Part shown: piece by piece, positions 49,951 through 54,726 of the stretch
Numbering within the stretch: the stretch's first letter is position 1
How the letters are laid out: every line of letters begins with the position of its first letter
DNA from: Thermus caldilimi
GTDB lineage: Bacteria; Deinococcota; Deinococci; Deinococcales; Thermaceae
Direction: 5' to 3'
DNA: 64,000 bases
Assembly (NCBI RefSeq): GCF_004684245.1
Contig: NZ_CP038452.1
Span: 2,032,796-2,096,795 of the forward strand
Position numbers and translations under genes: made by a program
Notes under the pieces: generated by a model
What the model was told of the DNA's origin: nothing
Seen by the model: only the letters and a program-made list of their open reading frames with translations
The model's database searches: none

Positions 49951-51156
49951 CTCAAAACTTGCACCTCCCGAATACCCTGCATGAACACCCCCTTCCCCCC
50001 GCAGGCGGGGGCCAAAGACCCAAAGCTCCCAGCTCGGCCATGAGGACCCGCAAGACCACCTCCGGCAGCAGCAGGCGCGCCGCTGCCCACCCAGCCTCCC
50101 GCCAAGAAAGACCTCTCCCGTCTGGAGCTAGCCTCACCCAGTGGGCCAGCAGGTAAGCCAGGAAGGACAGCACCAGAAACCGATGCACCCCCAAGGCCGT
50201 CCGCTGCCCAAAACGCCCCAGGGAAAACTCGCTCTTTACCGTGCGGAAGAAGTGCTCAATGGTAAACCGCCGCCGCCCCCACACCAGCACAGTCCGTGGC
50301 CCCGCAGGAAAGGTGGCCACCACGTACCGCCACTCCCACCCTCCCCCGGGTAAGGGATAGCGGTACCAGCTCACCCACACGGGAAAGGGAAGTCCCCGCA
50401 GATGCACCCGACTCCCCTGCCGTCTGAGCCCAAAGAGGGGAAGCCCCTCCCGCGTCTTTCGGTCCCGCCGCATCCCCACCACCGCTTCCAGACCCAACCC
50501 CCGCACCCCCACAAGAAACCGGGCGGTGCCGAAGGCAGCATCGGCCACCACCCGAAGGTGGAAGGACTTGCGCATCCAGGGGGGCAGGGAGGCCAGAAGA
50601 CGCAGGGCAAGGAGGGAAAGGGCCTTCTCCCCCTTCCCCCGCCACACCCGGTAGGCCCAGGGGATGCGCAGCTCTCCCAGCACCAGATAGAGCACCACCA
50701 GGTGGAGCCCCCACTTGCCGTGGAAAAAGGAGAGGGGCAAGGCGGGGAAGAGGCCCCGCTTCTCCAGGGTGACCAGGTCCAGGACCACCAGGAGCCTGGG
50801 CTTGGGCCCCCGCCTGGGCCTGGCCCGGTGGAGGGTTTCCTGGGCCTTCTTGCGAGCCAGGCGGATGAGGGCGCGGGTGGGCCAGGGATAGCGGTTGAGG
50901 AAGCGGGAGAGGGCGGAAGGGGACTTGGTCTTGCTGTGCTGGGGCCTGGCCTTGCCGTGGCCGGTGAGAAGGAGGAGAAGAAGCGCTTTGAGGGATTCGC
51001 GGAGGTGGGGGGTTGGCAGGAGGGCCAGGAGGGTCCAGAGTAGAGAATGGGCCGTTTGGGTCATGGCACCCTTCATCCGAAGGGAACCCGGCGGCCCTTT
51101 TCAAGTGGTCCCCTGGCGCATGGGTATGCGGGGGGTGGATAAGTGCAAGTTTTGAG
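49951..51156 (-). mobile_element. IS4/IS701-like insertion sequence, intact
   Basis: A 1206-bp element bounded by perfect 14-bp inverted repeats, CTCAAAACTTGCAC at 49951-49964 and its complement at 51143-51156. Four-base direct repeats ATTA flank it (49947-49950 and 51157-51160), so this is a recognisable insertion. The transposase gene fills it on the minus strand, and its stop codon lies inside the left repeat. Confidence 0.8.
49952..51076 (-). CDS. DDE transposase
   Basis: 374 residues. Likely catalytic acidic residues lie in LLVVLDLVTLEKRG (first Asp), LRVVADAAFG (second Asp) and RRRFTIEHFFRTVKSEFSLGRFGQRT (Glu in the YREK-like region). The architecture and flanking 4-bp repeats fit the IS4/IS701 superfamily; I cannot fix the family. 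The reading frame is intact, so the element may be active. ATG 51064 is an alternative start. Confidence 0.8.
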   Translation of the reverse strand: MKGAMTQTAHSLLWTLLALLPTPHLRESLKALLLLLLTGHGKARPQHSKTKSPSALSRFLNRYPWPTRALIRLARKKAQETLHRARPRRGPKPRLLVVLDLVTLEKRGLFPALPLSFFHGKWGLHLVVLYLVLGELRIPWAYRVWRGKGEKALSLLALRLLASLPPWMRKSFHLRVVADAAFGTARFLVGVRGLGLEAVVGMRRDRKTREGLPLFGLRRQGSRVHLRGLPFPVWVSWYRYPLPGGGWEWRYVVATFPAGPRTVLVWGRRRFTIEHFFRTVKSEFSLGRFGQRTALGVHRFLVLSFLAYLLAHWVRLAPDGRGLSWREAGWAAARLLLPEVVLRVLMAELGALGLWPPPAGGRGCSCRVFGRCKF

Positions 51157-51387
51157 ATTAGCTACCTAAGCGATTTGCTCTGTGATGCCTGGGACACGCG
51201 CCCTCTAGACTAGGCACCTAGCAGATGTTAGGCTGGAGGCCAAAGGGGAACAAGATGAAGAGGGCCAAACCACTACCGCCGCAAGTAAAGTTTCAGATCG
51301 CCCTGGAAGTCGTGAAAGGGAAGAAAAGTGCGGTGGAGATCGCTCGCGCATACGGCATCCACCCCAACACCGTCTACAAGTACCGGG

Positions 51388-51411
51388 GTCACGGGCAAAG
51401 CCCGTAGCTTG
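51388..51411 (+). repeat. GTC-hairpin element, copy 1
   Basis: GTC (51388-51390), stem ACGGGC, loop AAA, stem GCCCGT, then AGCTTG. The T-A-G at the 3' edge of the stem makes an in-frame stop in orfA. It belongs to a family seen six times in this region (see findings). Confidence 0.55.
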
Positions 51412-51492
51412 TTGAGCTCATGGCCAAAGGAGCCTCTCTCTTTTCCGAGAAGACCCCGGAGAAGGAGTACGAGAAGAAGATCCGCGAGCTGG

Positions 51493-51516
51493 GTCAGCCC
51501 CGAAGGGGCTATCTTG
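51493..51516 (+). repeat. GTC-hairpin element, copy 2
   Basis: GTC (51493-51495), stem AGCCCC, loop GAA, stem GGGGCT, then ATCTTG. It interrupts the OrfA sequence EKKIREL/QLIG, adding about 24 nt in frame. The element is flanked by TGGG on both sides. Confidence 0.65.
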
Positions 51517-51533
51517 GGCAGTTGATCGGCAAT

Positions 51534-53197
51534 CCACATTCCGCACCCCTCCCACCTTCCCGTAGGATTTCGGGGTGGCAGAGACTCCCGACCTGCACGT
51601 GTACGACCTCGGCCACCTGGGCTTGGTGGCCGGCATCCTGGACCGCATCGGACTGGTATCCCTGGTGGACAGGCGGGTAGGTCCCCGCCCGGGGGAGAAG
51701 GTGAGCACGGGGGTTGCCCTGAAGGCCGCGGTCCTCAACGCCCTGGGCTTCCTCTCCTCCCCCCTTTACCTCTTCGGCCACTTCTGGGAGGGCAAGCCCA
51801 CGGAGTGGCTCTTGGGGAAGGGCATCACCCCGGACCTCCTCAACGACGACCGCATGGGGCGGATGCTGGACAGCCTGTATGCGGTGGGGGTGACGGAGCT
51901 CTTCCTGGAGGTGGCCAAGGAGGCCCACCGGGCCTTTGCCTTCCCGGTGCGGGCCTTGCACGTGGACACCACCAGCTTCCACGTGCACGGGCGGTATGAG
52001 GGAACGGGGGAGGAGGAGGCTATCCACCTGGTGCGGGGGTACAGCCGGGACCACCGGCCGGACCTCAGGCAGTGGGTGATGGGCCTGGTGTGCGCGGACA
52101 CGGGGGGCATCCCCCTGCTCTTTGCTCCTGAGGACGGGAACGCTGCGGACCGCAAGACCCTGGTGGACCTGGTGTCCCGGTACCGGGAGGCCTTGGACCT
52201 GGGGGAGGTGGTGGTCCTGGACGGGGCGGGCTACACCCGGGAGAACCTGAAGGCCCTGGGGTCTTTCCCTTGGATCCTGCGGGTGCCGGCCACGTTGCGG
52301 GAGGCCAAGGCCTTGCTTGGGGAGGAGTTTCCGGAGGGGGCGTGGGTTTCCCTGGACCCGGGGTACCGGGGGCTGGAGGTGGAGAGGACCTACGGGGGCG
52401 TACGGCAGCGGTGGGTGTTGGTGGAGAGCGCGGCGCGGGGGGAAGAGGAGAGGGGCAGGCTGGAGGAGCGGATAGGGCGGGCGCAAAGGGAGGCGGAAGG
52501 GGTCCTGCGGAGGCTTTTGGCGCGGCGGTTTGCCTGCGATAGGGATGCCCGGCGGGCTTTGGAGGAGGCGAGCCGGGGGCTGGCCTACCACCGCCGGGTG
52601 TACCTGGGGGTGCGGGAGGAGCGGCGGAGGGGAAAGGTGGGGCGCCCCCGGAAGGGGGAAAGCCCTTTGGGGGTGGGGTACCGCCTTTGGGCGCGGGTGG
52701 AGCGGGACGAGGGGAAGGTGGCGAAGGCGAAGCGGGGGCTGGGGAGGTTTCTCCTGGCCACCAACGTGCTGGAGCGGGAGAGGCTCCCTTTGGGGGAGGT
52801 GCTTGAGCGGTACAAGGGGCAGACGCGCACGGTGGAGCGGGGGTTCCGCTTTCTAAAAGACCCCATGTTCTTCACGGGGAGCACCTTTTTGAAGCGGCCG
52901 GAGCGGGTGATGGCTTTGGGGATGGTGATGGCCCTGGCGCTGCTGGTGTACGCCTTGGGGGAGTGGGAGCTGCGGCGGAGGCTTGAGGAGGAGGGGGAGG
53001 GGGTGCCGGACCAGAAGGGGAAGTCCACGGCGAGGCCCACCTTGCGGTGGGTGTTCCAGCTCTTTTTTTGGTTGCGTCTGGTGGTCCTGGAAGGACGGGT
53101 GGCGGTGCTGAACCTCAAGCCCCATCACGAGCGGGTGGTGCGCCTCTTGGGGGTGGAGCGATATTACCTCCTGCAGTGAGAGGGGTGCGGAATGTGG
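51534..53197 (+). mobile_element. IS1634-like insertion sequence, intact
   Basis: A 1664-bp element with perfect 18-bp terminal inverted repeats: CCACATTCCGCACCCCTC at 51534-51551 and its complement at 53180-53197. No direct repeat flanks it, and the ends of the interrupted IS3 element on each side do not abut, so insertion was accompanied by a deletion or followed by rearrangement. It contains one transposase gene. Confidence 0.8.
51575..53179 (+). CDS. IS1634-family transposase
   Basis: 534 residues from a GTG. The N-terminal HDLGHLGLVAGILDRIGLVSLVDR segment resembles the DUF4277 domain of IS1634 transposases. Catalytic DDE candidates lie in VRALHVDTTSFHVHG, VVVLDGAGYTRENL and KGQTRTVERGFRFLKDPMFF. 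The frame is uninterrupted and codon use matches the host. It reads rightward on the same strand as the disrupted IS3 gene. Confidence 0.85.
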   Translation: MAETPDLHVYDLGHLGLVAGILDRIGLVSLVDRRVGPRPGEKVSTGVALKAAVLNALGFLSSPLYLFGHFWEGKPTEWLLGKGITPDLLNDDRMGRMLDSLYAVGVTELFLEVAKEAHRAFAFPVRALHVDTTSFHVHGRYEGTGEEEAIHLVRGYSRDHRPDLRQWVMGLVCADTGGIPLLFAPEDGNAADRKTLVDLVSRYREALDLGEVVVLDGAGYTRENLKALGSFPWILRVPATLREAKALLGEEFPEGAWVSLDPGYRGLEVERTYGGVRQRWVLVESAARGEEERGRLEERIGRAQREAEGVLRRLLARRFACDRDARRALEEASRGLAYHRRVYLGVREERRRGKVGRPRKGESPLGVGYRLWARVERDEGKVAKAKRGLGRFLLATNVLERERLPLGEVLERYKGQTRTVERGFRFLKDPMFFTGSTFLKRPERVMALGMVMALALLVYALGEWELRRRLEEEGEGVPDQKGKSTARPTLRWVFQLFFWLRLVVLEGRVAVLNLKPHHERVVRLLGVERYYLLQ

Positions 53198-53225
53198 GGA
53201 AAGGGAACCCAAGCCCTTTGAGCTG

Positions 53226-53247
53226 CAGAACCTACGCTTCGCGTGAC
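53226..53247 (-). repeat. GTC-hairpin element, copy 3
   Basis: On the minus strand: GTC (53247-53245), stem ACGC, loop GAA, stem GCGT, then AGGTTC. A shorter stem than other copies, but the same loop and flanks. It lies just before the VTYADFT segment of orfB, in reverse orientation. Confidence 0.45.
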
Positions 53248-53309
53248 GTACGCCGACTTCACCCTGCTTCCTTACGGGGGCGGCAGGGTGTGGTTCCTGC
53301 CCATCCTGG

Positions 53310-53329
53310 GTCAGCCGTAGGCTACTTTG
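53310..53329 (+). repeat. GTC-hairpin element, copy 4
   Basis: GTC (53310-53312), stem AGCC, loop GTA, stem GGCT, then ACTTTG. The preceding 11 bases are identical to those in copy 2. The orfB reading frame is lost at this point. Confidence 0.5.
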
Positions 53330-53951
53330 CCCATGCCACCCACGCGGTCCTAGCCTGGGGGATGGGGCCTTCCCCTACGGCGGCCCTGGCCCTGGGGGTG
53401 TGGGAGGGGGCCAAGGAGTGGATCCGGGGGAAACGGGCCGGGAGCCCCGGGCTCTCATCCAACACGACCAGGGGGGCGTTTCTGAGCCATGAGTGGGTGG
53501 GGAAGCTTCTTTTGGAGGACGGGCAGAGGGTGTCTTAGAGGCTGTCGTAAAAGTCTCCCACCTCCCCTTACGCGGCCCTCGCCAGCCGCTTCACCAGCAA
53601 GCGTAGCATGCCCAAGTACAACCACGCCTCGCTGACGGAAGGATGCTGCTCGTAATCCTTGCTCAACCTCCGGTTCCTCCCCAACCACGCAAACGTCCGC
53701 TCCACCACCCACCGCTTGGGCAACGGCTTAAAGCCCTCTACCCGGGGAAGCTCCGGCACCTCCTCCCCCTCCCGCACCCACACCCCCCGCACCCCGGCGT
53801 AAGGATGGGCCACCACCTCCAGCTCTAACCCCAGGGCCTCCAAAAAGCCCCTTAGGCCCCGGTAGCCCCAGTCCCCATACACCTTCCTCACCCTCGGCCA
53901 CAGACCAAGGTCCATCCCCTCCAAAACCGCTTTCCCACCCCACTTGTCGTA

Positions 53952-53978
53952 CCCAAGATTCGCCCCTTCGGGGCGGAC
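53952..53978 (-). repeat. GTC-hairpin element, copy 5
   Basis: On the minus strand: GTC (53978-53976), stem CGCCCC, loop GAA, stem GGGGCG, then AATCTTGGG. The closing base pair is C-G, where copies 1-4 have A-T, so pairing is conserved while sequence changes. It adds about 25 nt to the transposase gene and breaks the frame. Confidence 0.65.
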
Positions 53979-54083
53979 CGTTGGCCGGGTGAACGTATGC
54001 CCGGAGCATCCTCCCCCCGGTATCCACCACCACTTGGCGTTTCCGCCCCTTCACCCTCTTGGCCCCGTCGTTGCCTCGGGGCC

Positions 54084-54090
54084 CCCCTTT
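54084..54090 (-). promoter_or_regulatory. Programmed -1 frameshift site (IS5 transposase)
   Basis: The minus-strand heptamer A_AAG_GGG in the OrfA frame is a canonical X_XXY_YYZ slippery site. A -1 shift joins OrfA to the conserved OrfB sequence. The AAG codon is in phase with the ATG at 54437. Confidence 0.6.
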
Positions 54091-54473
54091 TCCGTGGTCT
54101 TCACCGATTGGCTGTCCACCACCAGGGCGCTGGGAGAGGCATACCGCCTTTCTCTTTCCCGGTCCCGCCGGACCAGGGCCTGAGCTGCCCTCTCCCAAAC
54201 CCTTTCTTTCTGCCACTTGCGGAAGTAGTGGTAGACCGTGGACCAGTGGGGTAGGTCATGGGGCATGGCACGCCACTTAATGCCGTTTTCCAGAACATAC
54301 AGGATAGCGTTGACGATTTCTCGGCGAGGCACCTTGGCGGGGCGACCCCCGGGCTTGGGGGCGGGGATCAGGGGCTCAAGGATGGCCCATTCCTCATCGC
54401 TGAGGTCGCTGGGGTAAGATGTGCGTGTCCTCTGCACCCTTCAAGGATACAAGACTTTTACGACAGCCTCTTA

Positions 54474-54716
54474 TAGCCTGATGGGGCCACGGGGGAACCC
54501 GGTGGTGGAGTTCTTTTTCTCCCGCTTTAAGGGGAGAACCGGGACCTCTTCCTGGGGCTCGAACACTTGAGGAGCTGAGGGGGGTGATAGCGGCGCGGAT
54601 CAGGTATTACCACGAGGGGCGGCTGCACTCGGGGCTGGGGTACCGGATCCCGGGGGAGGCCTTGCGGGAGGCTCTGGGGGCTTCACGTGGCAAAGAGGCA
54701 GGAAGTGCTCAAGATT
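54474..54716 (+). pseudogene. IS3-family orfB remnant, 3' part
   Basis: Continues the IS3 OrfB after the IS5-like insertion: MGPRGNPVVEFFFSRFKG (third catalytic Glu) in one frame, then, after a 1-base shift, RTLEELRGVIAARIRYYHEGRLHSGLGYRIPGEALREALG, the normal IS3 C-terminus. Together with the pieces at 51255 and 53198 it shows that one IS3 element has been opened by two other IS elements. Confidence 0.75.
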
Positions 54717-54726
54717 AGGGGCGCAA

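Follow-up and report, generated by a model that had tools for sequence, protein, structure and literature searches.

The stretch of DNA analysed here (the window) comprises 64,000 nucleotides (nt) of the genome of Thermus caldilimi. Its positions 51493–51516 hold a hairpin element, copy 2, inserted in the OrfA gene of an insertion sequence (IS) of the IS3 family. The surrounding region, 49952–54725, is a nest of IS elements: the IS3 is split by an IS1634-family element (51535–53199), with ~460 bp of IS3 lost, and again by an IS5-type remnant (53568–53924), and an IS701/IS4-like transposase (49952–51076, minus strand) adjoins it. The ends of the IS1634-family element, read from the sequence, are inverted CCACATTCCGCACCCCTC. 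The features of the host IS3 and of the hairpin elements within it are as follows.

51193–51534, plus strand: 5' part of the IS3-family host element (OrfA, truncated); OrfA and OrfB of its relative at locus L026 match NCBIfam IS3
51388–51411, plus strand: copy 1, GTCACGGGCAAAGCCCGTAGCTTG, GTCA-CGGGC-AAA-GCCCG-TAGCTTG, 24 nt, in the same OrfA
51493–51516, plus strand: copy 2, GTCA-GCCCC-GAA-GGGGC-TATCTTG, 24-nt hairpin element; the next base is G (A in the empty site)
51535–53199, plus strand: IS1634-family element within the IS3, with a 534-residue transposase at 51575–53179; replaces about IS3 positions 283–746
53197–53544, plus strand: middle remnant of the same IS3 (OrfB)
53228–53247, minus strand: 20-nt element in the OrfB remnant, GTCA-CGC-GAA-GCG-TAGGTTC, with a variant 3' end
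53310–53329, plus strand: 20-nt element in the OrfB remnant, GTCA-GCC-GTA-GGC-TACTTTG
54469–54725, plus strand: 3' remnant of the same IS3

Copy 2 spans exactly 24 nt, GTCAGCCCCGAAGGGGCTATCTTG, and keeps the frame of the open reading frame (ORF) at 51420–51680, which is translated as KKIREL-GQPRRGYLG-QLIG. An earlier interpretation made from the letters of the window only (the sequence-only reading) had taken it for an in-frame insertion in OrfA, to be checked by looking for the unoccupied site in full-length IS3 relatives of other Thermus genomes. This site was found, and the insertion is confirmed. L026, in genome G008, is an intact IS3 with an OrfA of 93 and an OrfB of 315 residues (OrfB above the NCBIfam curated cut-off, OrfA below it), and at the place of copy 2 it reads KKIRELEQLIG, from GAGTTGG|AGCAG; relative to it, copy 2 replaces one Glu by nine residues, a net gain of 24 nt. 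An intact relative with the same residues, which would have contradicted an insertion, was looked for and not encountered: the site is unoccupied in L026, L028, L029, L030 and L055, and in T. oshimai (L056) and a T. thermophilus plasmid (L057) it holds a different, 21-nt element. Both copy 1 and copy 2 fold as DNA into a hairpin of six pairs, A-T foot included (copy 2, −5.9 kcal/mol, z −3.2; copy 1, z −3.4). The contrast that had been drawn between a tolerated insertion in a coiled coil and frame-breaking copies elsewhere is not supported: copy 1, of the same length and likewise in frame, introduces a TAG stop at 51405–51407, 86 bases upstream of copy 2, and just 3' of copy 2 another IS truncates the gene.

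The other elements of the window also have occupied and empty counterparts. The copy 1 site is occupied in L002, L003 and L004, and in L027 with a different loop and tail; it is empty in L026 (CCGGG|ATGAGC). The 53228 site is occupied in L002 and L027 and empty in L026 and L144. Besides the split copy, the T. caldilimi genome (G000), a single contig of 2.45 Mb, contains this IS3 twice more at full length and once in divergent form. Alignment of its copy L008/L002 with L026 over the whole IS (~1.3 kb) gives seven hairpin insertions (24, 24, 20, 24, 20, 20 and 20 nt) against five ordinary substitutions inside the IS (hand count), besides changes at the joints. There is no target duplication at any of the seven, and at two of them three bases, not one, are altered at the joint. 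L026 and the T. caldilimi copy with the insert are otherwise 99.5% identical, and the OrfB genes of L002 and L026 agree to the same 99.5%.

Elements of this build (GTCA, a stem of 3–5 bp, a GNA or GNNA loop, the other arm of the stem and TANCTTG, mostly 20–24 nt in all) occur throughout the genus. A pattern with a free 13-base middle has nine matches in the T. caldilimi genome and none for the reversed-pattern control, and GTCA-N(8-20)-TAKCTTG has 309 matches, a few of them not hairpins, in 27 of 27 Thermus genomes against 11 for the reversed pattern (summed from the table); G001 has the most (36). When the hairpin is required, there are four matches in the window and none in the reversed window. 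A census allowing two mismatches was swamped by chance (46 matches, 18 in the control). In the GTDB contig collection the strict CGGGC form was found in 26 stretches, every one from Thermus, and among 111 genomes of the phylum in 15 of the 27 from Thermus and in none of the other 84. No account of the repeat in Thermus came up in the literature searches, and a search with the literal sequence gave, among the matches listed, none on Thermus by title. The hairpin inserts are a previously unlisted family, seen only in Thermus as far as the strict form in the GTDB collection and the genomes of the phylum goes.

From the loci in hand 142 unique junctions were reduced to 103 distinct sites, and a census admitting variant tails gave 111 distinct elements from 315 raw matches. 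The stems are of the CGGGC, GCCCC, GCC, GCCC and CGC types and some rarer ones, and are paired throughout, complementarity (with G-T allowed) having been required by the search rule. About 80 of the 103 sites have GNA (62) or GNNA (about 18) loops, and GNA hairpins of the d(GCGAAGC) type are extra stable. The length is 24 nt at 67 of the 103 sites, followed in frequency by 21, 22, 20 and 23. GTTC stands in place of CTTG in 11 of the 111 elements and CTTC in one, and the N of TANCTTG is never A, though A was allowed, just as A seldom follows the joint. By eye, GCCCC-type elements mostly come after GG and CGGGC-type elements mostly after TG, CG or AG. The loci demonstrate one family, constant in its ends (GTCA ... 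TANCTTG), with stems that covary and with a C-G pair closing the GNA/GNNA loops. Some of its members sit in the loops of larger palindromes (L126 at 1975–1998, L087, L094, L096 and L100), including an IS605 end hairpin and palindromes beside TnpB, which suggests that the elements may have a taste for hairpin loops.

The joint was characterised from 62 matches with gapless flanks of at least 80% identity, which reduce to 38 distinct pairs of occupied and empty sites; one pair (L093) is doubtful, its element being nested in another. In 36 of the 38 empty sites an A directly follows the joint. In the occupied counterparts of these 36 the base there is C in 16, G in 8, T in 7 and A in 5, so that the A is changed in 31, among them all 13 pairs with a flank identity of at least 0.95 (hand tally). 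None of the 38 pairs has a target duplication. The empty sites follow a consensus of about C-T-K-G|A-N-G, with G at −1 in 30 of 38 and at +3 in 28 of 38, and the CTTG end of the element repeats the left half of this target. Head-to-tail arrays speak against a simple joint rule, for in L042, L085, L089, L099 and L114, among others, an A is still present at the right end of the array, and inspection by eye gave no rule by which the joint base copies a neighbouring base. The pairs demonstrate precise, duplication-free insertion of a structured element at a loose CTKG|ANG-like target, the A being frequently lost.

Both mobile elements and host genes are hit. ORF pieces beside the 111 sites match IS3 (8), IS982 (7), IS5 (7), TnpB (6), IS256 (4) and single host genes, these tallies being of pieces, with overlap between families. 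Open ORFs of at least 150 residues contain 62 of the 111 elements, and 48 of these 62 have a length divisible by three; two frames dominate, the sense ...GHGRSPYL... and the antisense ...KIRATPVT..., with 15 each. Whole ORFs bearing elements encode topoisomerase I, MutL (two tandem copies), a UvrD-type helicase and a DnaX C-terminal domain, and the gene of a Rad52-like protein has an element near its 5' end. In topA of G023 a tandem pair adds 16 residues in frame, turning VVLLKDEGEK into VVFLKVAPSGLTKVAPSGLSKDEGEK; the orthologues in G017, G004 and G000, with flank identities of 93–94%, are without the insert. In-frame tolerance of the family in host genes is, on the evidence of such reading frames, well supported. 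The loci clearly include head-to-tail tandem arrays, IS elements that are densely hit and host genes that contain copies in frame. Several of the hit host genes (topA, mutL, uvrD-like, dnaX and rad52-like) are concerned with replication and repair, the loci being L045 170–2896, L052 1237–2928, L088 1–1821, L119 400–1101 and L040 1441–1986. At L042 1354–3030 an in-frame tandem pair lies in an ORF with LAGLIDADG and intein-splicing domains.

From these data we consider it probable that copy 2 was inserted as a mobile hairpin, ~24 nt long, which is non-coding, does not move autonomously and spreads within Thermus. The moving form would be a folded single strand, and a trans-acting or host activity would join the hairpin 3' of a CTKG-like sequence, which the CTTG end of the element mimics. 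On the right the joint would be made imprecisely, with the A lost and one non-templated base added. Insertions in IS genes would be dead ends; those surviving in host genes would mainly have lengths divisible by three, often with the A retained at the joint and the Glu codon thereby preserved.

Several points weigh against this interpretation. Movement was not observed and no enzyme was found, and the folded single strand is deduced solely from the geometry of the hairpin. The window and L002 share all four comparable elements with equal joint bases, whereas L026, the near-twin of L002, has none of them, and matching joint bases are hard to explain by parallel insertion. As to the joint itself, the A is retained at five of the 36 A-sites, elements in long host-gene ORFs mostly keep it and topA keeps it; because the change is not universal and the A mostly survives in long host ORFs, the change could be due to selection or later mutation and not to the joining step. 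A mover was sought beside element-rich spots in G001, with no candidate among the ORFs there, which were listed and not all scanned.

The sharing of sites has more than one side to it. At 53310 the window and L002 have the GCC type, L027 has GGC/GCC, L032 the GCCGCC type and L145 the CGGGC type; at the copy 2 site the window and L002 have a GCCCC element and L056, L057 and L031 a 21-nt CGC element. Different stem types at one site mean that it received independent insertions, and for some sites independent insertion at the same place is, on this comparison, established. The window and L002 are about 10–12% apart, with a ratio of non-synonymous to synonymous change (dN/dS) of 0.16 over 246 codons and no stops, in a count that leaves out junction positions and to which single-base indels are invisible. 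In G014 a clean OrfB (L144) is 90% identical to an occupied one (L027). Gene conversion of the tract spanning copies 1 and 2, with the window copy as donor and L002 as recipient, was considered and rejected: the 53228 and 53310 sites are shared too, and the flanking single-nucleotide polymorphisms are unconverted. We favour repeated insertion into copies derived from intact IS lineages as the explanation of the shared sites.

A wider proposal, which we put forward tentatively, is that a dedicated activity in Thermus inserts extra-stable mini-hairpins of ~24 nt at CTKG|ANG-like sites, with the A replaced by a non-templated base, and that it may thereby inactivate mobile DNA by hairpin-tagging and feed 8-residue peptides into host proteins. 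If this is true, the activity on mobile DNA is intense enough for seven hits on an IS3 per five substitutions. As mobile DNAs, the elements would be among the smallest known. We know of no enzyme with a matching footprint, in which an A is lost, another base comes in and nothing is duplicated. Transposases would be disabled repeatedly, and essential proteins of a model thermophile would be supplied with ready-made in-frame peptides; the transposition chemistry and the source of protein insertions are both testable in easily transformed Thermus strains.

The same footprint might be left by cutting and patching, a possibility that we rate as a minority one. A nuclease would cut CTKG|ANG-like sites, for example in incoming mobile DNA, and a hairpin would be captured at the break; as its CTTG end recreates the site, cutting would recur until the A was lost or another copy captured. 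Such a route fits the right joints, where the A is so often gone, the tandem arrays that still have an A on the right, and the heavy load of elements in IS genes. The target, in which the G, the A and the G at +3 alone stand out, is however too degenerate for a restriction-type enzyme, and neither a source of hairpins nor a nuclease has been identified.

We are doubtful that the elements are repeats of the REP/REPIN type mobilised by a Y1 (HUH) transposase, be it RAYT or the TnpA of IS200/IS605, through single-strand excision and insertion beside a short target like the right end of the element. The size, the tetranucleotide at the 5' foot of the hairpin, the lack of target duplication and the resemblance of the left-flank target to the right end of the element are all in keeping with this route, and a Y1 gene is present in the T. 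caldilimi genome (G000:C1:2104967) and in G013, G016, G017 and G019. These are, however, the only 5 of the 27 Thermus genomes with Y1_Tnp (PF01797), and G001, for all its pattern matches, has none. The tetranucleotide is GTCA, where REP sequences have GTAG or CGTC, the end hairpin of IS605 in Thermus (L125/L126) differs in sequence and is itself a target, interrupted by an element in L126 at position 1975, and joining by Y1 does not predict the loss of A. At the Y1 loci scanned there was no flanking pair of elements. A reverse transcriptase (PF00078; group II intron, retron or diversity-generating retroelement) was found in two of the 27 genomes, G008 and G022, and in neither G000 nor G001. 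Because each is absent from most genomes, Y1 transposases and reverse transcriptases were both rejected as general movers.

REP, BIME and REPIN sequences are small hairpins, dispersed, whose stems show compensatory changes and have a conserved tetranucleotide at their 5' foot; some of them lie in ORFs (PMC3733652, PMC3116915). The Thermus family shares the short, dispersed, tetranucleotide-footed hairpins and the compensatory changes. It differs in its GTCA tag (the family having been searched with GTCA fixed or nearly so), its fixed TANCTTG tail, its stems of 3–5 bp and its GNA loops, in lying mostly inside genes, in the change of the joint base and in the absence of Y1/RAYT from 22 of the 27 genomes; no Y1-type transposase flanked by the repeats, the mark of a RAYT, was seen at the scanned loci. 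The hairpin is not the left or right end of a resident IS200/IS605 element, as an end or mini-derivative would be, and the 38 pairs lack the target-site duplication that, together with terminal inverted repeats, marks a classical IS or miniature inverted-repeat transposable element. Rickettsia palindromic elements (RPE) are palindromes lying in frame in genes of functional proteins (PMC3733652). The Thermus elements resemble them in being in frame in protein genes, with the lengths divisible by three and the topA case as examples. They are 20–27 nt long, of other sequence, and also saturate IS elements out of frame; RPE are longer than this. Cyanobacterial small dispersed repeats (SDR), which Elhai and colleagues are said to have described in 2008, are reportedly very small mobile hairpins of about 21–27 nt; the Thermus family is from another phylum and of another sequence. 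Translational bypassing elements (byps) and intervening DNA are tiny hairpins that interrupt genes. In Thermus there is no sign of bypass or programmed removal, and the 20-nt copies break frames. By analogy, the family would work like the small mobile hairpins of the REP, RPE or SDR type, while lacking the tag and the RAYT of REP and leaving an unusual footprint.

It is improbable that the elements are old and vertically inherited within the IS, the clean copies (L026, L030, L144) arising by precise removal that leaves the A, in the manner of excised intervening DNA. Such removal would account for the agreement of the window, L002 and L027, diverged though they are by as much as ~20%, in their sites and stem type and usually also in the joint base, for a dN/dS of about 0.16–0.20 among them, with no in-frame stops in the codons compared, and for the scatter of the clean copies. 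The different stem types at one site are nevertheless independent gains, the A of the clean copies is, at three of the sites inspected, the codon base of distant clean relatives as well, and the frame-breaking 20-nt copies could not be read through.

A structured RNA or regulatory element that does not move (a terminator, attenuator or mRNA stabiliser) is very improbable: a stable hairpin with fixed flanks would suit it, but an Rfam search of 51000–53500 gave no match at E ≤ 1, and the elements have precise empty sites and are found within ORFs, in either orientation. An origin by slippage during replication or by target duplication of TGGG, as the sequence-only reading had proposed for copy 2, is hardly credible, for although TGGG does stand on both sides (51490–51493 and 51515–51518, each made up partly of flank and partly of insert), the empty site GAGTTGGAGCAG has a single TGG and no duplicate, which rules this origin out, the remaining sites in the same IS are not edged by TGGG pairs, and the same hairpin family is dispersed over all the Thermus genomes; the two TGGGs are a coincidence. 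Tandem Repeats Finder, run on the window, reported no array at 51388–51516.

Two further observations concern copies of the IS3. L133 and L134 (G000:C1:1284000-1316000) are 100% identical copies of 1461 bp with the same seven hairpins each, and the same 30 kb carries further elements. A segment of 842 bp at 99.9% identity lies directly beside one of the two and 769 bp from the other; the pair reads as a segmental duplication rather than a fresh transposition. At 1511–1792 of L055 (T. thermophilus pTHTHE1601) the intact OrfA, as annotated, terminates (KKPNLRFA) within an old element, directly behind an A6 run. Such runs are typical of IS3 frameshift sites, and here an element may have been incorporated into a functional IS.
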